NCBI RefSeq assembly: GCF_016863535.1
Contig: NZ_BOPB01000002.1
Span: 124,001-188,000, forward strand
Length of the DNA stretch: 64,000 nt
Reading direction: 5' to 3'
Origin: Micromonospora lutea
GTDB lineage: Bacteria > Actinomycetota > Actinomycetes > Mycobacteriales > Micromonosporaceae
Positions within the stretch are counted from its first letter, which is position 1, and the number at the start of each line of letters is the position of its first letter. The notes under the pieces were generated by a model. It was not told the DNA's origin. It saw nothing but the letters and a program-made list of their open reading frames with translations, and did no database searches. Below are positions 24,801 to 40,885 of the stretch, one piece after another. The translations under genes were made by a program, and so were the position numbers.

Positions 24801-24912
24801 CAGCCGGGTCGAGGTTCGCGTGCTGGATCAGCGCGGAGTCGACGTGCTGGAGCCGGTCGGCCAGGTCGCGCGTGACGATGTGCTCGTAGACGCCCCGTTC
24901 AAGATCCGTCAC
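21850..24912 (-). CDS. PLD-nuclease/SF2 helicase/DUF3427 protein
   Basis: 1020 residues. A helical start is followed by a phospholipase-D-type nuclease half (RLHAKAWLF near residue 217, then YVGSSNLSKTAL), an SF2 helicase (VVMATGTGKTIVA near 344, MVIVDEFHHAEAP near 432, LGLTATPDR, FLQQLGRGLR) and a C-terminal DUF3427 region of about 300 residues. Such proteins occur in phage-defence and mobile regions; one PLD HxK motif implies a dimeric active site. GTG 24912 was chosen over an upstream TTG at 24972. It lies 77 bases after darG, probably in the same operon. An internal piece of a near-identical gene occurs at 17257. Confidence 0.87.
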   Translation of the reverse strand: MTDLERGVYEHIVTRDLADRLQHVDSALIQHANLDPAAAPDALARHIATLAHRALHAVGGDDKLHHQVELANRIAEAIATLNPQAATERDQVADAKRLLHAIAAPPIPPAAPAFPSRPTTPLSTGALLVNGRHQPRIGHEVTHEMASADQVDLLCAFIKWHGLRLIEPAIRDLIDRGGRLRVITTTYLGATDQRALDRLAELGADIKVSYETRTTRLHAKAWLFRRNNGTTTAYVGSSNLSKTALVDGVEWNVRISNMEQPYVIDTFTATFEDYWHDPAFEDYHPGRDADRLRTALRGERRDGEAPIEIANLDVRPYPYQAEILADLDAERKVHGRWRNLVVMATGTGKTIVAALDYRRLHREKSVDSLLFVAHQEQILRQSLATFRQVMGDGSFGETLVGGRAPQHWRHVFASIQSLHRREIDPEAYDMVIVDEFHHAEAPTYARLLNRLKPRVLLGLTATPDRSDGGDVRRWFDGRAAVELHLWEALERQLLAPFQYFGLHDDVDLSQLRWKRGQGYDPTELDGVYTGNDARARMVLRAVRDTVDVDRMRALGFCVSIGHAEFMADWFSWHGVPSAAVTSRTTDRQALLKQFKDGTLRVLFTVDLFNEGVDLPMVDTILMLRPTESATIFLQQLGRGLRLDDDKPCLTVLDFIGGQHANFRFDLRWRALTGVSRRATTEAVRDDFPSLPSGCHIQLDRVAKEIVLANLRSAVPTSKTGLTKELRLLGDVSLADFLHEAGVEIEDVYRSASVGGWTGLRRLAGLEASPGGPDDRELGRAIGRMLHLDDPDRLDLLARVAAGERPEAGRLWDMLHFDLWGPNAPLTEREARLARLLAEPARCAELRQVAEVLRDRIHRVTQPVDGLPLRVHARYSRNEACAAFGMPNPGSLREGVKWLPDAQADIFFVTLVKSEQHYSPTTMYADRAITESLFQWESQSTTSSASPTGQRYINHEKQGSTVHLFVRETRIPDRDLGAPAYLYAGPMTYQKHSGDRPMRIIWELRHPLPADMYAAARAIAA

Positions 24913-24989
24913 CTGGGAACCTGACCACTTCTCGTCATTCCTACTGCTTTCAGATATCGGCCGGGCAGGCAATTAGACACCGCAGACGA

Positions 24990-26069
24990 TCACGCAGGGT
25001 CCAACGCCGGCAGCAAGCCGGCTGACTGCAGTCGGTTGTAGGCCAGCTTGATATGCGGGGGTGTGAAGAGGCGTGCCTTGCGGCCACTCCACCTACGAAC
25101 CCGCTCGGTCAACTCGGCGAGGTCGCTGGTCGGCGGGTGCAACGTAGCCGCGTAGTGCACTGTGGCCAGCAGCTCAAGGCTGTAGGGGGCCTCGAAGCCG
25201 TCGACTAGACGGGCCAACTGGTCTAGCGCGTCAAACGATGGCGTGCCGTGGGCCGCGCACCAGTTTGCGATGGCCTCGGGGGTGCCGGCGGTGAGCCGGA
25301 TCGGCTGGAGCTCCTCCACCCGTGCGGACCGGTCACCGAAGCCGGTGAGGTAGTGCCCTTCCAACCGGTCGAGGACGTGGTTGAGGTTGTCGGCGTACGG
25401 GCCGTATCGGCCGCGTCCGAATTCCAGACGTAACGGCTGCCCCAGGACCTGGAGGAAATAGGCGATCTTCTGAATTTCCAAAAGGGTTACACCGTCGCGC
25501 GGTTCGAGTGCCTGTGCTCGTTGCAGATAACGCTCGATAGCGCGCAGCAGGGTGGCGCGTCCTTCTGTCAGTCGGGGCTTCTCAGTGGCTACCGGCATGT
25601 CAGCCGGGTGCGGTGCCCCTTCCGGAGGAAAAAGCAGCACTTGCACGTCGGGTAGCGCGGCGAAGGCATGCTCGATCGCGGGCCTGACCTCGTCCCAGTC
25701 GAGCCCGCCGTTGCCGCAGCCCAGAGCGGGAATAGCTACGGACGTGATCCGGCGTTCACGCACCACGCGGACGAGATCAGCGAGCCCTGCCTGGATGTCA
25801 GACAGCTTCGAGTCGGCCCGCCAGTGCCCCTTGGTGGGGAAGTTAATTACATATCTACGGTAGCCTAGGCGGGCTGAATCAAAAACGAACATCTCGCCTA
25901 GTTTGACTCTATTTGCAGCGCACGCTGCTCGGTAAGCTGCATAATTCGCTGGGTAGGCTCGCTTGAACTGAAGGGCGATTCCCTTGCCCATCACGCCTAC
26001 CGTGTTAACCGTGTTGACCAATGCTTCAGCGTCAGCGGTCAGGAGGTTGCCGTGGCCGATGATGATCAT
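24990..26069 (-). CDS. darG: DarG-type macrodomain ADP-ribosylglycohydrolase antitoxin
   Basis: 359 residues. The N-terminal macrodomain (residues 1-150) has the ADP-ribose loop NTVNTVGVMGKGIALQFK, FPTKGHWR and VAIPALGCGNGGLDW. DarG removes ADP-ribose from thymidine bases and also binds DarT through its C-terminal domain, here residues about 185-359 (EIQKIAYFLQVLGQPL, FGRGRYGPYADNL). ATG 26069 overlaps the darT stop (ATGA), so toxin and antitoxin are coupled. Bases about 25840-25960 are noticeably AT-richer than the surroundings, suggesting acquisition. Confidence 0.93.
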   Translation of the reverse strand: MIIIGHGNLLTADAEALVNTVNTVGVMGKGIALQFKRAYPANYAAYRAACAANRVKLGEMFVFDSARLGYRRYVINFPTKGHWRADSKLSDIQAGLADLVRVVRERRITSVAIPALGCGNGGLDWDEVRPAIEHAFAALPDVQVLLFPPEGAPHPADMPVATEKPRLTEGRATLLRAIERYLQRAQALEPRDGVTLLEIQKIAYFLQVLGQPLRLEFGRGRYGPYADNLNHVLDRLEGHYLTGFGDRSARVEELQPIRLTAGTPEAIANWCAAHGTPSFDALDQLARLVDGFEAPYSLELLATVHYAATLHPPTSDLAELTERVRRWSGRKARLFTPPHIKLAYNRLQSAGLLPALDPA

Positions 26070-26755
26070 TCCTCTGCCCCCTTCCGCTTGTACCCGTAGT
26101 ACCAGTTCGGTCTGACACGAACGTACGGGTCGATGATGCCAGCTGTCTGTAGGACGCACCTCAGCTGTGCTGCCCGCTGTGATGTCCGTACGGCGTAGCC
26201 GACGAGCAGGTCCAGCGGGAACTCGCGGTGGACCAGGAACTCGGCCATGCGTCGCCTGATCCGATCCTGGTCGTCGGGAAGGTTCTTCCAGATCCGCTCT
26301 CGCATCAGCGGCCAGTCCACGAGCTCCGCAAGCTCGTCCAGGGAACGACTGAAGTTGGTCAGGTGATGTGCACAGTTGCCGTCGCTCGCGACCCAGCTGA
26401 GACGGGCCTCGTGCACTCTCTCCACGGTGCTGACGAGATACACGAGTGGATCGTCCCCGTCTGGGTAGCATCCCGTCTTGCCGTCCCGGTGCTCACAGGC
26501 GATCCGGTACATCATTGGCGAGCGTTCCGCGAAGTAGAAGGGCACGTAGTCAGCCACCACACCGCCCGGTTGACAGGTGATGATGCGGTCGCGACGGCTC
26601 GCCTTGATGTCGGCGGCGCCGACGTTCGTGGCAAGTCGCGTTCCTACAACGTTGTCTGGAAACAGCCGGCCCGCTGCCAGGATGGCCGGCAGGTTGTCGA
26701 TGTGCGTGAAGTGCATGATCAGGGTCGCACCAGGTCGGCTGACGTCGGTCGCCAT
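26066..26755 (-). CDS. darT: DarT-type DNA thymidine ADP-ribosyltransferase toxin
   Basis: 229 residues of the DarT (DUF4433) family: FTHIDNLPAILAAGRLFPDN, the NAD-binding region with Arg in GTRLATNVG, then VPFYFAERSPMMY, and the catalytic Glu in RRMAEFLVHREFPLDLL near residue 170. DarT attaches ADP-ribose to thymidine in single-stranded DNA, blocking phage replication, and DarG reverses it. All expected motifs are present, so the toxin looks intact. ATG 26755 lies 3 bases after the endonuclease stop; ATG 26716 (MHFTHID) is an alternative nearer the family start. Expression is probably from the promoter above 28357. Confidence 0.94.
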   Translation of the reverse strand: MATDVSRPGATLIMHFTHIDNLPAILAAGRLFPDNVVGTRLATNVGAADIKASRRDRIITCQPGGVVADYVPFYFAERSPMMYRIACEHRDGKTGCYPDGDDPLVYLVSTVERVHEARLSWVASDGNCAHHLTNFSRSLDELAELVDWPLMRERIWKNLPDDQDRIRRRMAEFLVHREFPLDLLVGYAVRTSQRAAQLRCVLQTAGIIDPYVRVRPNWYYGYKRKGAEE

Positions 26756-26758
26756 CGA

Positions 26759-28357
26759 TCAGTCCAGCTCGCTCGGGTCGATGCGGGCCTTCACCTCCGC
26801 GTGTTCAGCGAGCAGGTAGATCAGGTTGGAGCCGTCGATCAGCTCCAGCGGCTTGCCGGAGGCGAACTCGTACGACGCGGGCCCGTAACCACTGGTGGTC
26901 ACCAGGATGCCTTTGGAAGCGCCCTCGTTCTGCACTGTGCCGAAGAGGTCTCGGACCGACGAGACGTCGACGGTGTTGCGGTAGCGCTTGGCCTGGATGA
27001 CCACCTTGCCGCCGAAGATGGGCCGAGGGTCGAAGGCGACGCAGTCGACTCCGCCATCACGGGAGGGGCGGGTCTGCTTGGTGTCCAGTCCCATCTTCGC
27101 GAACAGGTTCTGGATCAGGCTCTCGAACTCGGTGGGGCTCAACTTGAGCAGGTTCGGCCGCTGGTCGAGGTCGGCCAGCACGTCGACCTCGTCGACGAAG
27201 CGTTTGTCGACCATGTCGAACTCCAGCACCGGGCGGACGGGTGCCAGCTCGGCCGGGCGCTTCGACACCGAGGCGTTGAGATGCTGCAGGCAGGAGTTGG
27301 GATCCACCATGCCGAGGTTCAGCCCGCCGAACACTTCGCGGGTGGTCCGGAGCGTCACCAGGCAGGGCTGCACGGACGCCCCGGTGCGTGGATCGGTGGT
27401 GTCGACGATGCCGTTGAAGACGATCGTGTCCACAAGCCCAGAGCGGTCGGCTTCGAAGAGTTCGTGCACGGTACGCAGCGTGAGCTGAGCCACGAGGTTC
27501 GCGTACCGCTCCTTGATTTCCTTCGCCGGCCGGGCGGCCGACGTGATCTCGTCGCGGACCTTGACGTAGCGGTACTCCCGAACCGGTGGGACGACATCAA
27601 GCGTCGGCAGGTGATACTCCACGACCAGCTGGCGGGACTCCGGGACGTACGCCAGGCGGTACTGCTGCGGGAAGTCGTCGGGGTAGACCGAGTTGCCGAG
27701 CACCATGCTGAAGTACTCGACGACCACCGCAGGCTCACCGGCGGTGAACGCGGCGGCGAATTGGTCGATCTCGGCGTTGTGCGCGGCAGCGTCCGCGTCA
27801 GCCTTGGCGCAGCGGCGCTGGTACGCCTGGTGCATCGAGGCGAGTTTGCGCTGGCGCCCGGCTTCGGCGGTCGCGTGCTCCGCCTGCGCCTGAGTAAACG
27901 CGTGCTGCGCGACGGACAGCCGCTGCTGGTATCTCGCTTCTCCCCCGAACATCTTGGCCAAGCCCCCCGGCGGTGATGGTTCGAAGCGGCGCCAATCCGG
28001 CGACGGCAGAGGGACGCCGAGCTTTCCAGGTTTGAACGGCTGATGGGTGACGCTTTTCTTCAACCGGCTGAAGTCGATGTGATCGTCAACTTCGAGAGTC
28101 GCGGCCAAGAGGTCGTCCAGCGCGTCAAGGCGAAGCTGGAGGTCCGAGTTCATGGCTGCCACCTCTGCGGCACGCGCTTCGGCGTACAGCCGCTTGCGTT
28201 CGCGTTCATTCGCAGCGGCAACGCGCTGAGCTGCCTTCTTGGCTCTCTCCGCCTCTCGCAGCAACTGCTGGTGGTGCCGGTAGGCCGCAGCCTGAGCCTG
28301 CCGCTGGGCACGCACCTGTCGTGCATGCGCCCGCTGCATCTCCTTGAGGATTCCCAC
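26759..28357 (-). CDS. Mrr-like restriction endonuclease with coiled-coil N-terminus
   Basis: 532 residues. The first 90 residues are a charged coiled coil (QRVAAANERERKRLYAEARA). A middle region of about 300 residues is not recognised. The C-terminal Mrr_cat nuclease has LSPTEFESLIQNLFAKMGL near 405, then GGVDCVAF and the catalytic QAKRYRNTV near 453, the PD-(D/E)xK pattern (E, D, QxK). Mrr-type enzymes cut foreign or modified DNA. GTG 28357 gives a start consistent with the coiled coil, with AGGAC upstream. It is the first gene of the operon with darT and darG; the 3-base gap to darT implies co-translation. Confidence 0.85.
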   Translation of the reverse strand: MGILKEMQRAHARQVRAQRQAQAAAYRHHQQLLREAERAKKAAQRVAAANERERKRLYAEARAAEVAAMNSDLQLRLDALDDLLAATLEVDDHIDFSRLKKSVTHQPFKPGKLGVPLPSPDWRRFEPSPPGGLAKMFGGEARYQQRLSVAQHAFTQAQAEHATAEAGRQRKLASMHQAYQRRCAKADADAAAHNAEIDQFAAAFTAGEPAVVVEYFSMVLGNSVYPDDFPQQYRLAYVPESRQLVVEYHLPTLDVVPPVREYRYVKVRDEITSAARPAKEIKERYANLVAQLTLRTVHELFEADRSGLVDTIVFNGIVDTTDPRTGASVQPCLVTLRTTREVFGGLNLGMVDPNSCLQHLNASVSKRPAELAPVRPVLEFDMVDKRFVDEVDVLADLDQRPNLLKLSPTEFESLIQNLFAKMGLDTKQTRPSRDGGVDCVAFDPRPIFGGKVVIQAKRYRNTVDVSSVRDLFGTVQNEGASKGILVTTSGYGPASYEFASGKPLELIDGSNLIYLLAEHAEVKARIDPSELD

Positions 28358-28706
28358 GTCTGTCCTAAGGGGTAGGAAGGTGCGGAGCCGCACCCGGCCA
28401 GCAAATCAGGAGGGCGCATCCACTCGGCTGGCAGCCACACCCTCTCGCGGTGAAGCATCCGTTCATACCCGGCGACCGAGGCGCTGCTCTGTCGCGTGCC
28501 GGACAGTTCCTTCGATCTTGTCGGAGCTGTTGAGATCAACCACCTAAACGGACAGATCGCCTGCGGCTAACCGGTCGAAAACCTAATCGAGTGGGGAGCG
28601 GTGGCGGCCCGTACGGGGTTCACATCTGGGTATCACCGACAGTAGTGTTCCCGGTATCAACAATCCTGCATGTGGGGGATTGCTGGCAAACACTGGAACT
28701 TGTAGC
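28358..28706. other. 349-base divergent intergenic region between defence operons
   Basis: Holds the palindrome at 28379 and a second short repeat, GGTATCA at 28635 and 28654. Otherwise no gene, RNA or promoter could be supported. It must contain the promoters of the minus-strand Mrr-darTG operon and the plus-strand 28707 operon. Confidence 0.6.
28379..28394. promoter_or_regulatory. Palindrome upstream of the endonuclease-darTG operon
   Basis: GGTGCGG-AG-CCGCACC, a perfect 7-bp inverted repeat 22 bases before GTG 28357. It may be the operator of the defence operon or a leader hairpin. Confidence 0.45.
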
Positions 28707-29516: not shown

Positions 29517-29775
29517 ACCTCGCCCAGCGGCTGGCTGCCATCCGAACCAGCAGCGTCGGCACCGCGATCGGCGGCGTCGCCCCGGCCCGACACAACGCCC
29601 GCACTTTCACGGCCCTCACTAGAAACTCGGGCTGCGGCTGGCGAGCAGTGTTCGACTGCGCCGGCGTCGACAATCAGCCCTTCGCCGCGTACACCGACCA
29701 TCCGGCGCGGTGCGGCCCGCGCCGTACGACGACCGCGTCCCGACCGCCGAGGACGCCCAGGAGGAATGCTCGTGA
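29513..29775 (+). pseudogene. Internally deleted operon gene (both ends kept)
   Basis: ATG 29513 overlaps the previous stop, and about 64 codons read sensibly (MNLAQRLAAIRTSS, PARHNARTFTALTRN, AVFDCAGVD). After about 29704 the good sequence continues in another frame as VRPAPYDDRVPTAEDAQEEC and a stop at 29773-29775. That stop overlaps the GTG of the next gene (GTGA), as expected for an authentic gene end. The original frame runs on to a meaningless Arg/Thr/Pro tail ending at 29779. The middle of the gene appears to have been deleted. From memory, the N-terminus resembles longer actinomycete proteins that may be PD-(D/E)xK-like, but I cannot verify this. Confidence 0.6.
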
Positions 29776-30827
29776 CTGATTCGACCAGCGAGATGATCCT
29801 CTACCGAACGGGTGACGGCCGTACCCAGATCCAGCTGCGAGCGGTCGACGGGACGGTCTGGCTGACCCAGGCGGATATCGCGACGCTCTTCGATACGACA
29901 CCACAGAACATTACGCAGCACATCCGAACCATCTACGCAGACGGGGAGCATCAGGAGGAACGAACCTGTAAGCAGCTCTTACAAGTTCGCCAGGAGGGCT
30001 CTCGCCAGGTACGGCGGACAGTCCAGGCCTACAACCTCGACATGATTCTGGCCGTCGGCTACCGGGTCCGGTCGCCACGTGCCGTTCAGTTCCGGCAGTG
30101 GGCGACGACGGTGCTGCGTGAATACCTGGTCAAGGGGTTCGCGCTCAACGACGAGCGGCTCAAGGAGCCGGGCGGCCATGACTACTTCGATGAGCTGCTC
30201 GCCCGCATCCGCGACATCCGGGCCTCGGAGAAGCGGTTCTACCAGAAGGTGCGGGACGTGTTCGCGCAAACCAGCGTCGACTACGACGGCAGCAGCGAGA
30301 TGGCGCGGAGGTTCTTCGCGACCATCCAGAACAAGCTGGTCTACGCGGTCACCGGCCGTACCGCAGCCGAGCTCATCGTGATGCGAGCCGACGCGGAAGC
30401 ACCGAACATGGGCCTCACCAACTGGGCCGGGGCGCGCGTGCGTAAGAGCGACGTGACGATCTCGAAGAACTATCTGAACGCCGAAGAGATCGACGAGCTG
30501 AACCGCCTGACCACTATGTTCCTGGACTACGCAGAGGACCGGACACGGCGGCGCCAGCAGATCCGGATGGCGGAGTGGGTGACCCAGACCGACCGGTTTC
30601 TCGACTTCAACGAGCGCCAGGTGCTCAACAACGCCGGACGGGTCTCCCAGGCCGACATGCAGCGCATCGCTCACGAACGCTTCGACGCCTTCGACGATCA
30701 ACGCCGAGCCCGTGAGCTCGCTGAGGCGGACCGGGAGGCAGCCGAGGAGTTCGCCGCGCTGGAGGCGGAGGCCCGGCGGCTGCTGGAGCCAGGGGAGGCA
30801 GATCACGTGGACGACTGGAAACCGTGA
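29772..30827 (+). CDS. RhuM-family protein
   Basis: 351 residues of the RhuM (virulence protein) family: ILYRTGDGRTQIQLRAVDGT, VWLTQADIATLFDTTPQNIT (helix-turn-helix), then the hallmark VQAYNLDMILAVGYRVRSPR and AVQFRQWATTVLREYLVKGF. The biochemical role of RhuM is not established; family members are common in genomic islands beside restriction genes. GTG 29772 has AGGAGG 7 bases upstream and overlaps the previous stop, so it is preferred to ATG 29766, which is too close to the ribosome site. A DUF262 gene follows 99 bases on. Confidence 0.88.
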   Translation: MTDSTSEMILYRTGDGRTQIQLRAVDGTVWLTQADIATLFDTTPQNITQHIRTIYADGEHQEERTCKQLLQVRQEGSRQVRRTVQAYNLDMILAVGYRVRSPRAVQFRQWATTVLREYLVKGFALNDERLKEPGGHDYFDELLARIRDIRASEKRFYQKVRDVFAQTSVDYDGSSEMARRFFATIQNKLVYAVTGRTAAELIVMRADAEAPNMGLTNWAGARVRKSDVTISKNYLNAEEIDELNRLTTMFLDYAEDRTRRRQQIRMAEWVTQTDRFLDFNERQVLNNAGRVSQADMQRIAHERFDAFDDQRRARELAEADREAAEEFAALEAEARRLLEPGEADHVDDWKP

Positions 30828-30926: not shown

Positions 30927-33257
30927 ATGAGCAAGTTGGGCACGATCCTCGACCAGATCGACTCCGGCACCGTGCTGCTGCCCGAGTTCCAGCGCGGCTA
31001 CGTGTGGAACCGGGACCAGGTCCGTGGCCTGATGCGCTCGCTCTACCTCGGTTATCCGGTCGGTGCGCTGCTGGTCTGGGAGACCGAAGCCGACCACGGG
31101 TCGGTGCGCGGCACCAGCAAGGCTGGCGGCGGAATCAAGCAGCTGCTTCTGGACGGTCAGCAGCGGATCACCTCCCTCTACGGGGTGGTGCGCGGCAAGC
31201 CGCCGGCGTTCTTCGAGGGCGACTCGGCGGCCTTCACCGGCCTGCGGTTCAACGTCGACGAGGAGACGTTCGAGTTCTACGCGCCGGCCAAGATGAGGGA
31301 CGACCCGACCTGGGTCGACGTCACCGAACTCTTCGTCAACGGCATCGAGCCGCACATCGGCAAGCTCTCGGCCGACCCGGCCACCATGCCGCACTTCGCC
31401 ACCTACATGGGCCGGCTCATCCGGCTGCGCAACATCCTCGAGCGCGAGTTCCACCAGGAGAAAATCACCGGGGCCGACAAGCGCGTCGAGGTCGTCGTCG
31501 ACATCTTCAACCGCGTCAACTCCGGCGGCACCAAGCTCTCCAAAGGCGACCTGGCGCTGGCGAAGATCTGTGCCGACTGGCCCGAAGCCCGCTCCACGAT
31601 GCGCAAGCACCTCAGCACCTGGTCGACTGCGGGATTCCAGTTCAACCTCGACTGGCTGCTGCGCAACGTCAACGCGGTGGCCACCGGCCGAGCCCAGTTC
31701 GAGGCCCTGGAAGGGGTCGGTTCGGCCGACTTCGCCCAGGCGTTGAGCTCCAGCGAGCGCTACATCAGCGGGTTCCTCGACGTGACTTCCGGACGCCTCG
31801 GGCTCGACCACGACCGGGTGCTGATGGGCCGCTACGCCTTCCCGGTGATCTCCCGCTTCCTGCACCTCAACGGCGGCTCGTTCACCGACGCCACCCAGCG
31901 TGACCGGATGCTCTTCTGGTACGTGCACGCCGCGCTGTGGGGACGCTTCGCCGGTTCGACCGAGACGATCCTGACCCAGGACTACGAGACTGTCGCGCGC
32001 AGCGGCATCGACGGCCTGATCGCCAGCCTCAGTCGGTGGCGCGGCGGCAACCTCGTCATCGATGGTCAGGACTTCGAGGGATTTGGCCGCGGTTCGCGCT
32101 TCTACCCGCTGCTCTACCTGCTCACCCGCGTGCTCGGCGCCCGCGACTTCGGCTCCGGGCTCGAGCTCAGAGCCGAGATGCTGGGCCACCTCACGTCGCT
32201 GCAGGTGCACCACATCTTTCCGAAGGCGCTGCTCTACAAGCACGGCTACGGCCGCTCCGAGGTCAACGCCGTCGCGAACTTCTCCTTCCTGACCCAGCAA
32301 ACCAACCTGGCGATCGGCAAGCGGGCGCCGGAGGACTACTTCGCCGAGACCCAGCAGAAGCACCCGGGCGCGCTCGAGTCGCAGTGGATTCCCACCGACC
32401 CGCAGCTCTGGCGCCTCGACCGCTACCGCGAGTTCCTGGCCGCCCGCCGAGAACTGTTGGCCGAGGCCGCCAACGGCTTCCTCGCCAGCCTGCGTGACGG
32501 GACCAAGCTGGCGGCCGAGCCGCTGCGGCCGGTGGTCGTGGTGGCCGAGGAGGACGACGACATCCGCGCCCGCCAGATTAAGGCGCTGGTCGAGGAGCTG
32601 ACCGCGGCCGGCTGCGCCGAACCCGCGCTGGACAGCGAAATCGCCGACCCGGCGACGGGACGTGTCCTGGGGGTGGCCGAGGCGTACTGGCCGGACGGTC
32701 TCCAACCAGGGCTCGGCAACCCGGTGATATTGGAACTCGACGCCAACCCCGACCTGCCCCGCATGGAGGAGCTCGGGTACGAGGTGTTCACCTCGGTGGA
32801 TGCGCTCCTCGGCTACGTGGCCCGGCGCAACGAGCAGGCCGCCGGACGGTCAGAGGACGACGACCACGTCGGCCCCGACGGCTCGACCGCCGAGGATGCG
32901 GCGCCGACGCATGATCCGGCGTCGGCGACCGTGCCGGCGCAGGCCGCGCCCGGCGGCACCGGCGCCGACTTCGACCGGGCAATGCGGCACCTGTACGTGG
33001 CGGCGCGCGACGAGGCCGGCTACAACGCCACGCTCTTCCTCAGCATGCTCGCCGAGCATGGCAGCATCTCCACCGCAAAGAAGCTGCTCGCCAGCCCGGT
33101 CGTGTCCGACGGGTTCGTGGCGCTGTGGGAACGCGGCCGCCTCGACCTGACGGTCGAGGCCCTGGTGACCAGGCCGGAGTTCGAGTGGCTGTTCGATCCC
33201 GCCGAGCTGGAGGTCGCGCGCACCCGCCTGCAGCAGTTCGAGTACGAGACGCGGTGA
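30927..33257 (+). CDS. GmrSD-type DUF262/HNH restriction protein
   Basis: 776 residues. The DUF262 (ParB-like nucleotide hydrolase) part has LLPEFQRGYVWNRDQVRGLM, LLLDGQQRITSLYGV and FNRVNSGGTKLSKGDLALAK. The HNH nuclease part has SLQVHHIFPKALLYK near residue 428, then FSFLTQQTNLAIGKRAPEDY. GmrSD enzymes are NTP-dependent type IV restriction systems that cut glucosylated or other modified DNA. The C-terminal 250 residues (nucleic-acid-metabolism unrelated, with DDDIRARQIKALVEELTAAG and a late helical domain) are an unusual extension. ATG 30927 is preceded by GTGAGGGAG. Confidence 0.88.
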   Translation: MSKLGTILDQIDSGTVLLPEFQRGYVWNRDQVRGLMRSLYLGYPVGALLVWETEADHGSVRGTSKAGGGIKQLLLDGQQRITSLYGVVRGKPPAFFEGDSAAFTGLRFNVDEETFEFYAPAKMRDDPTWVDVTELFVNGIEPHIGKLSADPATMPHFATYMGRLIRLRNILEREFHQEKITGADKRVEVVVDIFNRVNSGGTKLSKGDLALAKICADWPEARSTMRKHLSTWSTAGFQFNLDWLLRNVNAVATGRAQFEALEGVGSADFAQALSSSERYISGFLDVTSGRLGLDHDRVLMGRYAFPVISRFLHLNGGSFTDATQRDRMLFWYVHAALWGRFAGSTETILTQDYETVARSGIDGLIASLSRWRGGNLVIDGQDFEGFGRGSRFYPLLYLLTRVLGARDFGSGLELRAEMLGHLTSLQVHHIFPKALLYKHGYGRSEVNAVANFSFLTQQTNLAIGKRAPEDYFAETQQKHPGALESQWIPTDPQLWRLDRYREFLAARRELLAEAANGFLASLRDGTKLAAEPLRPVVVVAEEDDDIRARQIKALVEELTAAGCAEPALDSEIADPATGRVLGVAEAYWPDGLQPGLGNPVILELDANPDLPRMEELGYEVFTSVDALLGYVARRNEQAAGRSEDDDHVGPDGSTAEDAAPTHDPASATVPAQAAPGGTGADFDRAMRHLYVAARDEAGYNATLFLSMLAEHGSISTAKKLLASPVVSDGFVALWERGRLDLTVEALVTRPEFEWLFDPAELEVARTRLQQFEYETR

Positions 33258-33262
33258 CGCCC

Positions 33263-34557
33263 ATGACCGTCAGCAACCTGCTGCTTCCCCGACAGCCGGC
33301 GCCATCGCCGTCGGCTCAGGCCGAGCAGGTCATCACTGCGGTCCTGGCCGACCTGCGTTCCGGCAAGCATCGTGGCGTGGTGGCCGACTCGCCGCCCGAC
33401 GCCGGCAAGTCGACCCTGGTGGTCCGCGCCGCCATCGAGCTGGCCCGCACCGGCGAGCCACTGATCGTCATCGCGCAAACAACGAGCGCCGCCTTTCGGC
33501 GAACGACTACACCGCCACCGAGCGAATCAGGCGGTACGGGACGGTCCGGGTGGCCGCCAAGGTCGCCGACCTCGGTGGTCCCTCCGTCATCATCGGTACG
33601 GCAGCCAAGTGGTCGATGATGTCGGAAGGCTCCTGGCCCTGGGCGACCGTCGACGAGGCGTACCAGATGCGGTCGGACGCGCTGCTGCGCGTGGCCGGCC
33701 GGTTCGAGGGGGCGCTGTTCGTCGGCGACCCCGGCCAGCTCGACCCGTTCTCCACCGTCGAGACCGAACGCTGGGTCGGCCTCACCTGGGACTCGATGCA
33801 GTCCGCGGCCGCCGCGCTGCTGCGGCACAACCCGGATCTGCCGGTACACCGCCTGCCAGTGTCGTGGCGCCTGCCGCCGTCCGCCGCGCCGGTAGTCGCC
33901 GAGACGTTCTACCCGTTCACCGGCTTCCAGGCCGGCACGACCCTCGGCGAACGTTCACTCTCGTTCACCAGGGCCGGCTTCCGACACGGCAAGATCGACG
34001 CGGTGCTGGAAACGGCGGCGGCGACCGGCTGGGCACTCCACGAACTGCCCGCCCGGCACACGCTACGCACCGACGCCGAAGCCGCCGCCGCGTGCGCCGC
34101 CCTGGCCCGCCGGCTACTGGAACGCGGAGCGATCGCCGTCCCCGAACGCGAGCCCGGCGGAGCGCCGGTCACCCCCGACCGGATCGCCATCGGCGCCGCC
34201 CACCGCGACCAGGTCGCCGCCATCCGCGCCCACCTCGGTGAGGCCGAATCCGGCGTCACCGTCGACACCGCCAACCGCCTGCAAGGCCGGGAGTACGACG
34301 TGACGATCGTGCTGCACCCGCTGTCGGGGCGGCGGGATGCGACCGCGTTCCACCTGGAGTCGGGGCGGCTCTGCGTGCTCACGTCCCGGCACCGACAGGC
34401 TTGCATCGTGGTGGCGCGGGCGGGCATTGCTGAGCTGCTGGACGCCCACCCGTCGGCCGAGCCGGTGCACCTAAACGTGCCGGTCAAGTTTCCCGATGGC
34501 TGGGAGGCGAACCAAGCCGTCCTTGCCCGTCTCTCGCCCAATCGAGTAGGCCGGTGA
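33263..34557 (+). pseudogene. SF1-type AAA helicase with a -1 frameshift
   Basis: ATG 33263 opens a frame with Walker A region VVADSPPDAGKSTLVVRAA and IELARTGEPLIVIAQT. Just after, at about 33480, sense moves to another frame: NERRLSANDYTATERIRRYG, VADLGGPSVIIGTAAKW, Walker B TVDEAYQMRSDALL, FVGDPGQLDPFS, VSWRLPPSAAPVV and TANRLQGREYDVTIVLHPLS. A single lost base in CAAACAACG would restore IAQTNE, a conserved-looking SF1 stretch. No slippery heptamer is present, so programmed shifting is unlikely. Asp replaces the usual Gly before AGKS. It starts 5 bases after the DUF262 stop, so it was part of that operon. Sequencing error remains possible. Confidence 0.7.
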
Positions 34558-34566
34558 CTAAGGTTT

Positions 34567-34585
34567 GGCTTTGCTCATCAAAGCC
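34567..34585 (+). terminator. Hairpin terminator of the plus-strand defence operon
   Basis: GGCTTTG-CTCAT-CAAAGCC, a 7-bp stem 9 bases after the helicase stop, followed by a T-rich stretch (GTCTTTGTTTTGTC). This is the clearest intrinsic terminator in the window. Confidence 0.65.
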
Positions 34586-34663
34586 GCAAGAGTCTTTGTT
34601 TTGTCGGGTTCCGGACATTCTGTGGTGCTGATGGAGGCAGGAAGATAAATTCTTGGTCCGTCT

Positions 34664-35230
34664 GTGCTGCTTCGCGATCGGGCTCCAATGGAGACAATCG
34701 GATGTCGGGCACCGCTAAGCGGATCCACTGGAGTGGCTAGGGAAAGTGGGGCGTGGATATTGCCATCGAGCTGGAATTCGGCTTTGGTGTCAGGAAGCCT
34801 CGCGCTCCTACTTGTTCTGGTTGGATTGATCGCATTTATGATGGCAATGTACTTGCTTGGCTCTGCCCGAGGTGGTCAAAATCCGAATGAAGAGCAGCTG
34901 CGAGTCGCATGCATGCGTGATCACTCAAGGGACCTCGAACGATCTCTGAATCTTGCGCTTGGTGAATGCCGGTATCGAGCTGGAAGCAGCGCGGCGCCTC
35001 AAGTGCGACTGGATGCCGCTTGGCGCGTTAGGCCCAAGGATTTCCAGGGTGCAACTCGCGATATCGCCGAGGTGATTAAGTCTCGTCGCGTCGTGTCCAT
35101 TGATCTATCGCTGATGCAGCCTTACGAGGCAGCCCGGCTAATCGACTACTGCCATGGGTTGGCTGCTTGCTCGGAGGCGTGGATTTTCCGCTTGGCGGAA
35201 AGTGTAATCGTCATCTCTCATGATTCCTGA
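34664..35230 (+). CDS. Membrane-anchored SepF-like protein
   Basis: 188 residues. One membrane helix (SLALLLVLVGLIAFMMAMYL, residues about 46-65) precedes a linker, then a C-terminal domain that follows SepF closely: RPKDFQGATRDIAEVIKSRR, VVSIDLSLMQPYEAARLIDY, CHGLAACSEAWIFRLAE, VIVIS. SepF polymerises and tethers FtsZ to the membrane through an amphipathic helix; here a real membrane helix replaces it. Composition is far less GC-rich than neighbours. GTG 34664 is the first start; ATG 34688 and GTG 34732 are possible, and no strong ribosome site decides. It overlaps the next gene, so the two form a unit. Function is inferred to be conflict-related. Confidence 0.6.
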   Translation: MLLRDRAPMETIGCRAPLSGSTGVARESGAWILPSSWNSALVSGSLALLLVLVGLIAFMMAMYLLGSARGGQNPNEEQLRVACMRDHSRDLERSLNLALGECRYRAGSSAAPQVRLDAAWRVRPKDFQGATRDIAEVIKSRRVVSIDLSLMQPYEAARLIDYCHGLAACSEAWIFRLAESVIVISHDS

Positions 35231-35240
35231 CGGAGGCATT

Positions 35241-36071
35241 TTGCCAGCCGCAAGCCAGCAAGAAAACTTGTTGCTACTGAATCACAGGATTCGACAGACG
35301 GAGCAGGCGCTGGAGTACGCGCGCCGGCGGCGAAAGCTGTCTTATGTGAGCATGGCTTTCGGGCCGATCTTGATCGCTGCTGTCTACGCAGCCATATGGC
35401 TGCCGTGGTGGGGCGGTGAGTCGAAGAAGATTGTCCTGATACCCACTTTCTTCGTGGCGCTGTGTTTTGGTGTGGCTGCTTTTAGGCTGACCAAAGATCC
35501 GGGTGGGCCTATCGATAAAGAGCGGTCCGATAAGCGGCCGTCCGAGCCGGAACTGGAACTTGCGCTTGCTCGGCTTCGGGATGAACGGAAGCTCGTAGTT
35601 GCCGGAATTCAAGGCGACTTGAAGGTGCGCCGCGTGGCGTATAAGGAGGACGCCTATTCTGATATCGACCAGCTAAGAACGGAGAGTAGGAAATACAGGG
35701 TAGTAAATAACGCCCTCCAGGGCTTCTTGATCATCGGATCCCTCGCGGCCACGGGGATTGCCGGAATTGCGGATAGAATGACCTGGGATCGATGGACGAT
35801 CCTCGGGCTCACTTTCCTTGTGGGTGTCACTAGCGGCTTCATGGGTTACTTTAAATATAAGGAGCGGAGTTTCTACCTACAGCAAACCGCTGATGCCATT
35901 GAGTCGGAGTGGGAAGCTGTCGAGGTTGGAGTGGGGAGATACAAGAGAATTCCCAACGAGGAGGATCAGCTTGCTGAATTTGTCGAGGAGGTGCATCGAC
36001 TGAAGACTGAGCAGAAAAAGCGGCAGCAGAACCTCGAGCAACCGCCGGAATCCCGGAACTCTGGTGATTAA
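35241..36071 (+). CDS. Four-helix SLATT/DUF4231-like membrane protein
   Basis: 276 residues from TTG 35241, which has GGAGG 4 bases upstream. ATG 35220, overlapping the previous gene by 11 bases, would add 7 residues but lacks a ribosome site. Two helix pairs are visible: about 38-58 and 65-82 (FGPILIAAVYAAIWLPWW, IPTFFVALCFGVAAF), then 160-178 and 186-204 (GFLIIGSLAATGIAGIA, ILGLTFLVGVTSGFMGYF). A charged coiled coil lies between, and FYLQQTADAIESEWEAVEVG with a Gly-Arg-Tyr-Lys follows the last helix. This is the pattern of SLATT/DUF4231 2TM effectors thought to permeabilise membranes in conflict systems. GC is about 50% at 35461-35520 (30 of 60 bases). Confidence 0.6.
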   Translation: MPAASQQENLLLLNHRIRQTEQALEYARRRRKLSYVSMAFGPILIAAVYAAIWLPWWGGESKKIVLIPTFFVALCFGVAAFRLTKDPGGPIDKERSDKRPSEPELELALARLRDERKLVVAGIQGDLKVRRVAYKEDAYSDIDQLRTESRKYRVVNNALQGFLIIGSLAATGIAGIADRMTWDRWTILGLTFLVGVTSGFMGYFKYKERSFYLQQTADAIESEWEAVEVGVGRYKRIPNEEDQLAEFVEEVHRLKTEQKKRQQNLEQPPESRNSGD

Positions 36072-36393
36072 TTTTGGTCAATGGCGAGTCTCCGGCGCCT
36101 GTGTAAAGACATGGCAGCTCGAACTCTTCCGAGGCGGAGTGCACCTCACTGACGTTCGCCTACCTCGACATCCTCACCTGGAAGCATGGGGGTGGCGGAC
36201 GGCTCGATCAACCCTTGCCGTCGCATGCAACTGCCCGGCCTGAGTCCTTTTGTTGCGGCCGTCGCCGGGGGACCAAGGTCCCGTGGTCCAGTGACATGGA
36301 CCCTGCCGGCGACGGTCCGGGCAGGAGCAGGCTGAAGATGACCGGTTCGGCCCCCGTGAGCCGTACCGCTGGTGCCGTCGTCAGGAGGGCACG
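36072..36393. other. 322-base intergenic region with possible DosR-type box
   Basis: Contains the GGGACC-AA-GGTCCC box at 36269 and a second inverted repeat, GGTCCA-GTGACA-TGGACC (36284-36301). It also holds a plus-strand stretch encoding LTFAYLDILTWKHGGGG, which may be gene debris. Nothing else could be supported. Confidence 0.5.
36269..36282. promoter_or_regulatory. GGGACC-AA-GGTCCC box, DosR/DevR-like
   Basis: A 6-2-6 inverted repeat resembling the DosR consensus core GGGACT(N)2AGTCCC of actinomycetes, 112 bases before the next start. If real, the downstream membrane protein would be induced by hypoxia or nitric oxide. Confidence 0.45.
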
Positions 36394-37308
36394 ATGACCG
36401 CGCAGCTTGCTACCCGCGCACCGCAGCGACCGCCGATTCACCGGCAGTCGCGTCTGCTCGCCTGGGCCCTGGCCGCCACGGCCGGTGCGATCGCGGCAGC
36501 GGCGCTCGTCGGCCCGCTGGGGCTGGGTTTGATGCGGTACCGCACCTCGGACACCACCCTCAACCAGCTGCTGGGCAGCGACGCGGCCGCGCTCTTCGTC
36601 GTCGCTCCGCTGGCGCTCGTGGCGGCACTGCTCGCCGCCCGCCGGCACCCGGTGGCGCCGCTGCTGGCGACCGGCGTCGGCGGGTACGCCGTCTACACGT
36701 ACGCTCAGGTCATCATCGGTCAGGAGTACCTGCGCCTGCCCGGCAACGTCGAGCGTTTCTTCCCGCTGCTGCTCACCGTGTTCCTGCTCGCCGAGGCGTT
36801 GCTGGTCCTCGGCTGGCGGGGGACGCCTGCCCACCTGCCGCCACCGTCACCGCGGCTGGCTCGTACGGCCGGCGTGACGCTGCTGGTGTTGGCGGCCTTC
36901 CTGGTGTTCGGCCAGCACCTGCGTCCGATGCTGATCGCCTGGCAGGACCCGTCCCGGCTGACCGAGTACGCCTCCAGCCCCACCCCGTTCTGGATGGTCA
37001 AGCTGATGGACCTCGGCATCATCGTCCCGGCCGCCGTCGCCACCGGCATCGGCGTGCTGCGGCACGCCCCTTGGGCGCGTCGAATGATGTACGCGCTGCT
37101 CACCGGCTACAGCTGCCTCGCTGTCTCGGTCGCGGCGATGGCGGTGGTGATGATCGCCAACGGCGACCCGGACGCGTCCCCCGCGCTGGCGGTGGGGTTC
37201 GGGCTCTTCGCCCTGCTCTTCGTCACGCTGACTGCAATGCTGTACCGCCCCCTGCTCCGGCGGAGAGTAGACGACTACGACGGGCCGTATGCAGCCGCCG
37301 ACGAGTAG
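36394..37308 (+). CDS. Polytopic membrane protein of unknown function
   Basis: 304 residues with about eight membrane helices, for example LLAWALAATAGAIAAAALVG, ALFVVAPLALVAALLAA, LLTVFLLAEALLVLGW and LAVSVAAMAVVMIANGD. No catalytic motif is seen. ATG 36394 has AGGAGG 6 bases upstream, a strong site. A possible DosR-type box lies upstream, which would link it to low-oxygen survival. The GIY-YIG gene starts 10 bases after its stop, so the two may be co-transcribed. Function unknown. Confidence 0.75.
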   Translation: MTAQLATRAPQRPPIHRQSRLLAWALAATAGAIAAAALVGPLGLGLMRYRTSDTTLNQLLGSDAAALFVVAPLALVAALLAARRHPVAPLLATGVGGYAVYTYAQVIIGQEYLRLPGNVERFFPLLLTVFLLAEALLVLGWRGTPAHLPPPSPRLARTAGVTLLVLAAFLVFGQHLRPMLIAWQDPSRLTEYASSPTPFWMVKLMDLGIIVPAAVATGIGVLRHAPWARRMMYALLTGYSCLAVSVAAMAVVMIANGDPDASPALAVGFGLFALLFVTLTAMLYRPLLRRRVDDYDGPYAAADE

Positions 37309-37318
37309 CCTCCCGTGC

Positions 37319-37705
37319 ATGCCTGACTCCATGGTCGACAGTTTGCTGGCCGGCTTCACCGCGCCGCGGCCCTACACCAAAGAGGTCGTCGCCGACGCTC
37401 CTCGCGCGCCTGGTGTGCACGTGGTGATCGATGGCGGCGCCGTCCTCTACGTCGGCCGGACGGGAAACCTGCGCAGGCGACTCCAGCAGCACCTGACCGG
37501 CAACCGCGAGTCGTCGGTGCTGCACCTCCAGGTCGGCGAGTTGCTCGACCGGCAGGGGCCGGCGGCCACGGCGGAGGGCATCGCCGGCTGGCTGGGCCGC
37601 CGCGAGGTCCGCTGGCTGGAAACCGACAACCCGGAGGGTACGAAGGACGCCCTGGTCCTGGCTCTCAAGCCCCGCTTCAACCGTCAGGTGCCGAAACCCC
37701 GGTGA
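37319..37705 (+). CDS. GIY-YIG nuclease-fold protein
   Basis: 128 residues. The GIY-YIG core reads GVHVVIDGGAVLYVGRTGNL, then RRRLQQHLTG, with the catalytic Arg in RTGNL/RRRL and a later Glu in VRWLETDNPEG. The two motif tyrosines are replaced in part (GVHVV for GIY, LYVG for YIG), which is tolerated in this family. The final segment LALKPRFNRQVPKPR resembles small bacterial GIY-YIG proteins. ATG 37319 is chosen; ATG 37331 is possible. DNA or RNA cutting is presumed, the target unknown. Confidence 0.78.
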   Translation: MPDSMVDSLLAGFTAPRPYTKEVVADAPRAPGVHVVIDGGAVLYVGRTGNLRRRLQQHLTGNRESSVLHLQVGELLDRQGPAATAEGIAGWLGRREVRWLETDNPEGTKDALVLALKPRFNRQVPKPR

Positions 37706-37981
37706 CGGGCGGGATCAGCCTCCGTGGAGTTAGCCGAGCTGCTGGTTGCCGTCGGGCCCGGTCGCTCATTGGCAGCAACCGGGCCTCCTCCGTCCACAAG
37801 CCAGGTGTTTTCGGGAATGCCGCCTGGGTACCACATCCTCCGATCGGTAACAGATCTTGTACGCAAGGCGGCATCCACGGCACGGCACCTTGCGGTTAGC
37901 GTCGTTGTTCGCACACCCGATCCTGGCCCCCGGAGTCATGTTGGTGACGAGCCGGCCGGCGGCCTGTCTGGAGGTCTGTGT
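37706..37981. other. 276-base intergenic region
   Basis: No gene or hairpin could be supported. The open frame upstream of GTG/ATG choices in this stretch is not protein-like. It probably holds the promoter of the helicase at 37982. Confidence 0.4.
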
Positions 37982-40885
37982 ATGGCCAGCGGCCAGCCCA
38001 GGAGACTCGTCAATGCCGTCCAGCGGGCGTTGCAGGCGGGGCCGGTGTCCCAGGACGAGCTGATCACGAGCTTGCATCAGGCTGGAATTCGAGTGGACGT
38101 GGGCGTGCTGTGGGAGACGTGCCGTACTCACGGCTTGGCCGATCTTCACGGCGACCAATGGGTGCCGAGGGGGTGGGCGGCAGCCATCAACGAACGTCGC
38201 GACACCGCTGGGTCGGCTTCGGCGGGTGGCCTGGGGCCGGGATTGCCGGCGCAACGAACCAGGGCGGGTCCGCCTACGCAGGATCGCCTGGCACGGCGCG
38301 CGGACGCGCAGGTACGACGGCTGGCGGACTCGGTCGGACTGGGGATGCCGGAACCCGTACCGCCGGTCGGGCCGGTGCCGGCCGGCTGGAACGAGGTGGC
38401 GCGGGGTGCATGCCGGGCGCTGGCCGACGAGCTGGCGAAGGTCACCAGCCGGCGCACCGAGACGGATGTGCCGCTCATGGATGGCCAAGAGACGGGCCAG
38501 ACCGCCACGCGACGGTTGGTGCGATTCGAGGCGCAGAGCGAGATCGGCACGGCCGAGGGAACCCGCGGCCTGCTGGTCGTGCAGGAATTGCAGATCGAGG
38601 TCGAGGTGATCTCAGTCTTCGGCGCGGTTGTCACCCTCTCGTTGCCGTCCGACGCTCCGGTGACACGCGAGGCGACGCTCCGGCTCGACATGTCATGGCT
38701 GTTGAACGTCCAGAGCAGGCGGCTGCGGGAGCTGATCGACGGAGGTCCCGGCTTTGATGCTGCGGCTGCCCTGGCGGTTGTCACGCCCGAGAAATCGGCC
38801 GCCACGCCGACCTCGCCACCTGCTGGGGCACGGCTTCGGTCCGCCGAGGTTGAGGGCCTCAACGAGGGCCAGCGCCGAGCCGTCGAACTGGCCCTGACGC
38901 ATGGAGTCACGTGGTTGTGGGGACCACCTGGTACGGGCAAGACCACGACGGTCTCTGCCCTGGTAGCTGCCTTGGCGGCACGGGGCAAGCGGGTGCTGCT
39001 GGCTGCACCCACGAACGCGGCGCTGGACGTGGCGGTCACGTCCCTGTTCGAACGTGCGCCGCAGCTTGCCGAGAACGGAACACTCGTCCGGCTGGGCCAA
39101 CCCACCGACAGGCTTCTAAGTCATCGCGCCGGCAACGCAGTCCTGGTTGATGTTGTCGCCGCGCAACGCGGCGCCCTGCTTGCCGCCGAGCGTGTGGACG
39201 TCGGGCGTCGGCTGCAACAGGCTCGGCACGATCTGGCCGAGCTGCGGCGCGTCAAGGGACCGCTCACCGATGAGCAGCAGCAGAGGCGTTCCGAGCTGGA
39301 GAGCGAGGCGGCTGAACTCGCGTCGGTGGCAGAAGGGCTGGATCGCCTCCTAGCGCAGTTTCGCCGCAAGATCTGCCGGGAGGCGACGATCGTGGCCGCC
39401 ACCGCTCACCAGACCGTGCTCGAGACGCTCAAGGAATTGACGTTCGACGTGGTGGTGCTCGACGAGGCGAGTATGACCACCGCTGTGCTGGCCATGCTGG
39501 TGGCCGGCGCCGGGCGAGGGCACACCGTCATCGCCGGCGACTTCCGGCAACTTCCGCCGGTAGCCGTCGCCGATACGCCCGCTGCCAGGGAGTGGCTGCA
39601 CAAGAGTCCCTTCGAGAAGGCCGGCGTGGCACGCGCCGTCAAGGAGGGTCGTCTCCCAGATCGGCTCGCGGCGCTGACCACCCAGTACCGGATGCGCCCC
39701 GCCATCGGCCACGTCGTCAGCACAGCCTTCTATCGGGAAAGCCCTCTCATCACTGGCGACTCGGTCCCCGGACGCAAACGGGGCAGCCGGATTCGCTGGG
39801 CCAGCGGCGAGTTGCTGGTGCTGGATACCTCACGGCTTGCCGCCCGCACCGCCCGCCGGCAGGGCAGCACCTCGCGGTACAACCTCATGCATGCTCAGGT
39901 GATCGCCGCATTACTTGGCAGCGCCACCACCCAGACCCGCGACCTGGCGATGATCACCCCGTTCACAGCGCAGGCGCGGCTGCTGGAGTCGCTACTGATC
40001 GACTTTGGCCTAGACGGGTGGGCATCCTCAACGGTGCACCGCTTTCAGGGCGGCGAGCGCGACATCGTCATCTACGACACGGTGGACACCGGACGCGGCG
40101 TGGCCAAGCTCCATTCCTGGTTCACCGATCTTGATCCGGACAGTACCGGCAACCGTCTGCTCAACGTGGCGGCGAGCAGGGCGAAGGATCACCTCGTCGT
40201 GGTGGGCGCGTTCGATCAGCTTCACCGCACTGGCTCGTCCGTCGATCCGCTGTGGCGGTTCTTCGCTCACCTGCTCGACCAGGCGGTCCACTTGTCGTGG
40301 CAGGAGGCCATCGATCTTTCTGACGGGACCACGGAGCACGTCCCGTCCACGGATGTGTTGCCGCGGCTTCGCGAGGACATCGCCGACGCGACCGCAGTCG
40401 ACATGTGGCTACCTTCCGCTCCGCTGGTCGGTCTGCCGAAACTGCTGCCGGCCCTGCGATCGCTACCGACACCCCACGGCGAAATTCAGTCCAACACGAT
40501 CTGGGTGGGGCCAGACGGAGACGGGTACCTCCCAGCGGAGGCGCTCCATGCCCGGCGTGAAGGCGTCAACGTGCGTCCCTGCACACCGATCCTGGAGTCC
40601 AGCGCTGTGGTAGGCGACGTCGTCTGGTCGGCCGGGTCGTCACTCCTTGGTCCCGACCCAGGGGTGGTCCTGCGCACGGAGAGCCCCGGGTTCGCCGACC
40701 TGGTGCGTCGCACCCAGCGTCGGAGACGATCGGCGGCGGTACCGGGCACCGGCCAGCTCGGCGACGAATGCGGGCGCTGCCAACGGATGCTCGTCCGCCT
40801 GGAGCTGCCTCGCCGAGGCGCGCCGGACGTGCGCTACGAGTGCATGTTGTGCGACCGGTCGCCCAGACGAGAAAGAAGACGGTGA
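37982..40885 (+). CDS. SF1B (UPF1-like) helicase with N-terminal winged helix and C-terminal zinc ribbon
   Basis: 967 residues. A short helix-rich start (VSQDELITSLHQAGIRVDVG) looks like a winged helix. The helicase core has Walker A LWGPPGTGKTTTVSAL near 315, VVVLDEASMTTAVLAML near 493, IAGDFRQLPPVAVAD, LTTQYRMRPAIGHVV near 568, TVHRFQGGERDIVIYDTVD and LLNVAASRAKDHLVVVG. A coiled coil splits motifs I and II. The tail holds a zinc ribbon, CGRCQRML and CMLCDRS. ATG 37982 has GGAGG 7 bases upstream. Such helicases act on DNA or RNA and are frequent in defence islands. No partner is obvious here. Confidence 0.88.
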   Translation: MASGQPRRLVNAVQRALQAGPVSQDELITSLHQAGIRVDVGVLWETCRTHGLADLHGDQWVPRGWAAAINERRDTAGSASAGGLGPGLPAQRTRAGPPTQDRLARRADAQVRRLADSVGLGMPEPVPPVGPVPAGWNEVARGACRALADELAKVTSRRTETDVPLMDGQETGQTATRRLVRFEAQSEIGTAEGTRGLLVVQELQIEVEVISVFGAVVTLSLPSDAPVTREATLRLDMSWLLNVQSRRLRELIDGGPGFDAAAALAVVTPEKSAATPTSPPAGARLRSAEVEGLNEGQRRAVELALTHGVTWLWGPPGTGKTTTVSALVAALAARGKRVLLAAPTNAALDVAVTSLFERAPQLAENGTLVRLGQPTDRLLSHRAGNAVLVDVVAAQRGALLAAERVDVGRRLQQARHDLAELRRVKGPLTDEQQQRRSELESEAAELASVAEGLDRLLAQFRRKICREATIVAATAHQTVLETLKELTFDVVVLDEASMTTAVLAMLVAGAGRGHTVIAGDFRQLPPVAVADTPAAREWLHKSPFEKAGVARAVKEGRLPDRLAALTTQYRMRPAIGHVVSTAFYRESPLITGDSVPGRKRGSRIRWASGELLVLDTSRLAARTARRQGSTSRYNLMHAQVIAALLGSATTQTRDLAMITPFTAQARLLESLLIDFGLDGWASSTVHRFQGGERDIVIYDTVDTGRGVAKLHSWFTDLDPDSTGNRLLNVAASRAKDHLVVVGAFDQLHRTGSSVDPLWRFFAHLLDQAVHLSWQEAIDLSDGTTEHVPSTDVLPRLREDIADATAVDMWLPSAPLVGLPKLLPALRSLPTPHGEIQSNTIWVGPDGDGYLPAEALHARREGVNVRPCTPILESSAVVGDVVWSAGSSLLGPDPGVVLRTESPGFADLVRRTQRRRRSAAVPGTGQLGDECGRCQRMLVRLELPRRGAPDVRYECMLCDRSPRRERRR

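Follow-up and report, generated by a model that had tools for sequence, protein, structure and literature searches.

A SepF-domain protein predicted to be membrane-anchored and an adjoining SLATT protein as a candidate mobile defence module in Actinomycetota

Two small adjoining genes in a 64,000-nucleotide stretch of a Micromonospora lutea contig (positions 124001-188000; hereafter the window) encode a SepF-domain protein with a predicted membrane helix and a SLATT-domain protein. The genome comprises 6.1 Mb, and its nearest named relatives belong to Micromonospora. Together they probably form a small mobile module for defence or self-destruction. Both domains were identified directly by sequence; strict adjacency, low G+C content, a patchy occurrence across genomes, an unoccupied site in relatives and a defence island around the pair in this genome were likewise obtained directly. 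With regard to how the pair acts, we tentatively favour, at somewhat below an even chance, a mobile defence module in which a SepF domain, by forming polymers, would act as scaffold and restraint for a SLATT pore that opens upon infection.

Gene boundaries and predicted proteins

Both genes lie on the forward strand. A listing of open reading frames with the earliest possible starts gives ORF 1 as 34664-35230 (from a GTG) and ORF 2 as 35220-36071 (from an ATG). We placed the start of ORF 1 at TTG 34760 on the basis of homologue lengths (146 amino acids for P0002 and P0004) and a purine-rich stretch upstream, which yields a gene at 34760-35230 encoding 156 amino acids. Similarly, the N-termini of homologues (e.g., P0006 and P0008) and a probable ribosome-binding site, GGAGG at 35232-35236, place the start of ORF 2 at TTG 35241 (35241-36071, 276 amino acids). 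With these starts, the genes are probably separated by 10 nucleotides. The first-pass annotation, which described the second gene as overlapping or directly abutting the first, was right about adjacency but probably not about overlap. At other loci, the first possible start codon of the SLATT gene (for locus L038, the second) falls between 23 nucleotides ahead of the point where the SepF stop codon ends and 54 nucleotides beyond it. A TTG start after GGAGG (35232-35243 in the window) is apparently used by the window SLATT gene and by at least the L020 homologue.

The SepF-like character initially proposed for the C-terminal part of ORF 1 is borne out by a match to Pfam SepF (E = 3.2e-7; 30.9 bits against a cut-off of 27; residues 122-184). 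The predicted structure has the SepF fold and lies within 0.8 Å of Corynebacterium glutamicum SepF over 70 residues. In the 156-amino-acid form, the SepF-fold domain covers residues 83-156 (35006-35227) and stops right after the last strand, without helix α3. The membrane helix proposed for this protein corresponds to one hydrophobic helix-like stretch at approximately residues 14-32 (34799-34855), with a hydropathy of 2.72 across 19 residues; the model places a helix at 6-37. Hydrophobic stretches of the transmembrane type are present in all 26 SepF-like sequences included in the hydropathy comparison, against a value of at most 0.92 for the ordinary SepF that the same genome also encodes. 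The SepF domain is predicted to lie on the cytoplasmic side. The charge rule for topology is followed in 26 of 28 membrane-anchored SepF-like proteins (hereafter membrane SepFs), with one tie and the opposite result only in the window's own protein (0 versus -1).

ORF 2 matches NCBIfam SLATT_1 at 69.4 bits (cut-off 41) over residues 143-271 (35646-36032; residues of this protein are numbered in a 283-amino-acid form). Its earlier description as SLATT/DUF4231-like thus holds for SLATT but not for DUF4231 (Pfam PF14015), to which the window protein scores 20.4 bits, below the cut-off of 24.7; precomputed PF14015 tags are present on many of its listed relatives. The string FYLQQTADAIESEWEAVEVG, quoted in that description, is present and falls within the best conserved part of the SLATT family. 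AlphaFold, run on single chains, yields an all-helical model (pLDDT 88.4). Four hydrophobic segments form the two helix pairs anticipated by the first reading. An N-terminal hairpin (35247-35495) has predicted helices at residues 10-60 and 66-92 with hydrophobic segments at 43-61 and 70-88, and a second hydrophobic hairpin (165-183 and 193-211) lies within the SLATT_1 domain. Like the SepF fold, the membrane helix and the cytoplasmic location of the SepF domain, these hairpins are predictions. Among 43 relatives, 24 have four hydrophobic segments, 17 have three and two have two. No PDB chain matched ORF 2 by sequence, and its structural matches are helical arrangements with no clear relative among them. 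PADLOC assigned neither protein of the pair to any family at E-values up to 10.

Departures from division SepF proteins

To define how the membrane SepFs depart from true SepF, 28 of them (alignment A3, window protein included) were compared with 19 other SepFs, comprising L001 and 18 lower-scoring loci of the Micromonosporaceae SepF search. The glycine at the dimer interface, which the accessible text of PMC8178401 places, as Gly114, in a buried position in the middle of the dimer interface of bacterial SepF, is retained in 27 of the 28. Two FtsZ-contact positions were compared. In the accessible passages of PMC7118173, K125 and F131 of C. glutamicum SepF touch the FtsZ tail, the F131A mutation weakens binding from a Kd of 15 µM to one of 340 µM, and a double mutant is without detectable FtsZ binding. 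At the K125 position, 22 of the 28 membrane SepFs carry R or K (the others H in two, Q in three and E in one); at the F131 position, 26 carry I, L, V or M and two carry Phe. In contrast, the other SepFs, as read from alignment rows, have R and Phe at these respective positions in 19 of 19. Given the replaced phenylalanine, direct FtsZ binding by membrane SepFs appears doubtful.

Further differences lie near the C-terminus and around the glycine. Every membrane SepF stops 1-12 residues past the last strand and has no C-terminal helix α3, whereas 18 of the 19 other SepFs continue for 18-22 residues. According to the same passages of PMC7118173, SepF without α3 forms linear polymers via its β-sheet in crystals, and the FtsZ tail reverses this polymerisation only partly. 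From the absence of α3 and the replacement of F131, we infer that membrane SepFs resemble laboratory variants with ready polymerisation and weak FtsZ binding. A cysteine two residues before the glycine is present in 27 of 28 membrane SepFs and in none of the 19 others, which have Ala or Ser instead, and 22 of the 28 carry an extra conserved tryptophan.

These comparisons do not bear out the initial idea that the pair targets or monitors the division machinery, although the basic residue at the K125 position is largely kept. In its fuller form, this idea holds that membrane SepF joins host SepF at the septum, where the pair would either monitor the divisome and fire SLATT upon phage disturbance, or poison septation as a dominant-negative. 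We regard this as fairly unlikely. The SepF fold of the model, the retained dimer glycine and the basic residue at the K125 position are in its favour, as is a description in the accessible part of PMC7118173 that C. glutamicum SepF unable to bind FtsZ still enters host SepF rings, with multiple rings per cell. Contact with the host's own SepF is possible. The division-directed reading is opposed by the replaced FtsZ-contact phenylalanine and by the family-specific cysteine, with which the interface may differ. It seems improbable that this membrane-pinned, FtsZ-blind, polymer-forming SepF is a domesticated immune guard that joins host SepF, reads the division machinery and opens the SLATT pore upon phage disruption. 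A second SepF-type paralogue in Micromonospora (L067, genome G013) has a 12-amino-acid tail and the FtsZ-contact phenylalanine, with no SLATT match in the locus sequence examined.

Pairing, distribution and genomic setting

Scanning the genome collection with the SLATT alignment yielded 30 loci. A SepF-like ORF lies directly upstream in all 22 with 48-75% SLATT identity (L020-L041) and in none of the eight with 36-40%. SLATT genes without SepF therefore exist, and not all SLATT proteins require this partner. Among 151 Micromonospora genomes, 17 SLATT matches were found. All seven full-length matches are accompanied by SepF, and none of the remaining ten, which comprise the SLATT domain only (one, L018, starts at a contig end), has this partner. 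The SepF profile matches 350 of 354 Micromonosporaceae genomes, and its scores are split: 12 places reach 146-184 bits, and none of the others exceeds 64. These 12 are the membrane-SepF genes, and each has a SLATT gene directly downstream. An order-wide draw of 397 genomes gave five matches above threshold, two of them new relative to the other draws and both with SLATT, and a phylum draw of 396 genomes gave a full SLATT match in the window's own genome only, plus one partial match. These genome sets overlap and hold approximately 28 non-redundant pairs in total; L020 and G142 are near-identical. The co-occurrence check proposed in the first-pass annotation thus found the two genes together in every case checked.

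Genera carrying the pair include Micromonospora, Salinispora, Actinoplanes, Nocardiopsis, Marinitenerispora, Saccharopolyspora, Saccharomonospora, Prescottella, Amycolatopsis, Glycomyces, Actinorhabdospora, Saccharothrix, Pseudonocardia, Actinomadura, Nocardia, Kutzneria and Sciscionella. Some of the proteins are named separately by NCBI as 'cell division protein SepF' and 'SLATT domain-containing protein'. The SepF and SLATT trees correlate (25 pairs; Pearson 0.46; none of 10000 permutations as high) but have only 6 of 22 splits in common, and a correlation would also arise from common descent by itself. Another SLATT subfamily (L010-L017) is encoded by single genes of approximately 290 amino acids; in several of these loci the gene sits, by eye, between integrase-like and purine-nucleoside-phosphorylase-like genes, apparently a second recurrent insertion site.

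At 55.0% G+C, the pair is well below the window average of 69.3%, and only one of 627 segments of its length, taken at 100-base steps and in part possibly overlapping the pair, is as low. The low G+C reported at first is thereby confirmed, including the count of 30 G+C in 60 bases at 35461-35520 (recounted by eye). At each of the 22 loci compared, the pair has a lower G+C content than its flanks, by a mean of 14.2 points. Relative to L088 (genome G075), L118 is missing approximately 2.0 kb, where it has 5 bp instead, and L120 approximately 1.9 kb, where it has 73 bp; the flanks of both are 82-96% identical to those of L088. L122 and L127 are also empty at this site. The extra piece in L088 has 56.3% G+C against 68.1% and carries both genes; no further gene was called in it by a simple gene caller that also missed the SepF gene.

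Several loci place the pair among ordinary metabolic or core-type genes, and a comparison of six copies from Micromonospora shows most synonymous sites at saturation in both genes. The dN/dS ratio could be computed for 4 of 15 pairs of SepF copies (0.11-0.25) and for 1 of 15 pairs of SLATT copies (no nonsynonymous change); other SLATT comparisons give pN of 0.13-0.20 beside pS of 0.75-0.82. Such core-type settings and low nonsynonymous beside saturated synonymous change would suit a housekeeping membrane or envelope function unrelated to conflict, such as septum-linked mechanosensing. However, the occurrence in only 12 of the 354 family genomes and five of the 397 in the order draw, the G+C deficit at every locus and the empty sites in relatives make this improbable.

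Elsewhere, the pair sits between unrelated genes, for example beside a ClpB-like gene in L023 (by eye). This placement, together with the low G+C and patchy occurrence, would also be expected of a toxin-antitoxin-like addiction cassette, in which a SLATT toxin and a membrane-anchored SepF-like antitoxin spread since their loss harms the cell, without a specific phage role. The order of the two small adjoining genes, with the putative antitoxin first, agrees with such an arrangement. We nonetheless consider it unlikely, given the single-gene SLATT relatives found without any SepF and the result that Pfam and NCBIfam detect no DNA-binding or other antitoxin-type domain in the SepF-like protein.

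Flanking genes match a phage integrase in 4 of 98 cases and PADLOC families in at most 28 of 98, with single genes matching Pgl/BREX-type and restriction models. At 4 of 10 other sites, all four belonging to the six same-genus sites of the ten compared, the pair is right beside a type IV restriction gene with 79-83% identity to its counterpart in the window, which lies approximately 10 kb from the pair. This restriction gene is present in 40 of 81 genomes, and one of 30 of its loci compared (the G075 copy, L112) has the pair inside its 1.5 kb flank. The same restriction gene, of the ResIII-PLD-DUF3427 type (21850-24972, reverse strand, in the window; also L088, L090, L091 and L092) marks a Micromonospora defence hotspot with varied genes beside it, including DarG-like, Mrr, GmrSD-type and SepF-SLATT genes.

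Within the window, the island runs from an NB-ARC ATPase with HTH and TPR repeats at its edge (17406-19835, reverse strand) through the type IV restriction helicase to a DarG-like macro-domain gene (24990-26471), an Mrr nuclease (26759-28393), a RhuM-family gene (29766-30827), a GmrSD_N gene (30927-33257) and part of a helicase (33550-34557). The helicase-like gene directly before the pair occupies two reading frames on the forward strand (33125-33619 and 33550-34557), and this split gives it the appearance of being frame-broken or wrongly sequenced. The first-pass annotation placed the pair at the end of a defence island. The island is present, but the pair is not at its very end, as it is followed by a GIY-YIG gene (37289-37705), which scores 22.8 bits where the cut-off is 22.6, and by a gene for an MkoA-like helicase (37724-40885).

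A possible mechanism and comparison with known systems

SLATT proteins are regarded as effectors that act at the membrane in conflict systems and are controlled by nucleotide or nucleic-acid signals. Under the favoured reading of a defence module, the SepF-like protein would combine membrane anchoring, dimerisation and polymerisation, and its membrane-bound polymers would array SLATT subunits, presumably by touching them, and hold them closed. By analogy with published SepF biochemistry, the lack of α3 may free the β-face for polymerisation or partner docking, and loss of the FtsZ-contact phenylalanine may weaken FtsZ binding. A putative trigger would alter the SepF polymer and allow SLATT to open as a toxic membrane pore, which might collapse the membrane potential and result in abortive infection. 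We favour infection as the trigger because of SLATT precedent and the defence island; the divisome is a possible sensor via host SepF. Weighing against the favoured reading are the loci among ordinary metabolic genes, the SLATT genes that lack a SepF neighbour, the few splits common to both trees, the lack of a PADLOC match for either protein, the window protein's exception to the charge rule and the largely retained basic residue at the K125 position. At only ~1.4 kb, the pair can feasibly be cloned and tested directly.

The first-pass annotation knew of no described system joining SepF to a pore-forming effector, and among open-licence papers we likewise found none linking SLATT to SepF, or SepF to phage or abortive infection. 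No SepF is among the matches listed for anti-phage, defence-island and SLATT literature, and the accessible text for DUF4231 with SepF is one pneumococcal proteomics paper in which both are separate list entries. If true, a strict SepF partner would be the first divisome fold controlling a SLATT protein, as far as the literature was searched, and division-protein polymers could act as immune scaffolds.

The SepF-like protein of the window has the predicted fold, core sequence and dimer-interface glycine of SepF (PF04472) from Actinobacteria and Bacillus, but differs in carrying a transmembrane-type helix where SepF has an amphipathic one, in lacking α3, in its replaced FtsZ-contact phenylalanine, in its extra cysteine and tryptophan, and in the SLATT gene alongside. 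DRT10 (UG17 reverse transcriptase, SLATT and ncRNA) is likewise a small operon in a defence-island context with SLATT as presumed membrane effector. In the accessible portions of the respective papers, the SLATT type beside UG17 is SLATT_5 (PMC8934634), and SLATT proteins are predicted pores whose gene deletion abolishes DRT10 phage defence (PMC12632851). The window pair, in contrast, has no reverse transcriptase among ten neighbours (Pfam, PADLOC) and no Rfam match at 33000-37500. As a clear member of SLATT_1 (NF033634), the window SLATT protein has the same C-terminal hairpin and helices as its single-gene relatives. However, the SLATT partners described in the accessible literature are reverse transcriptases, GTPase systems and nucleotide-related domains, whereas its partner is a SepF-domain protein.
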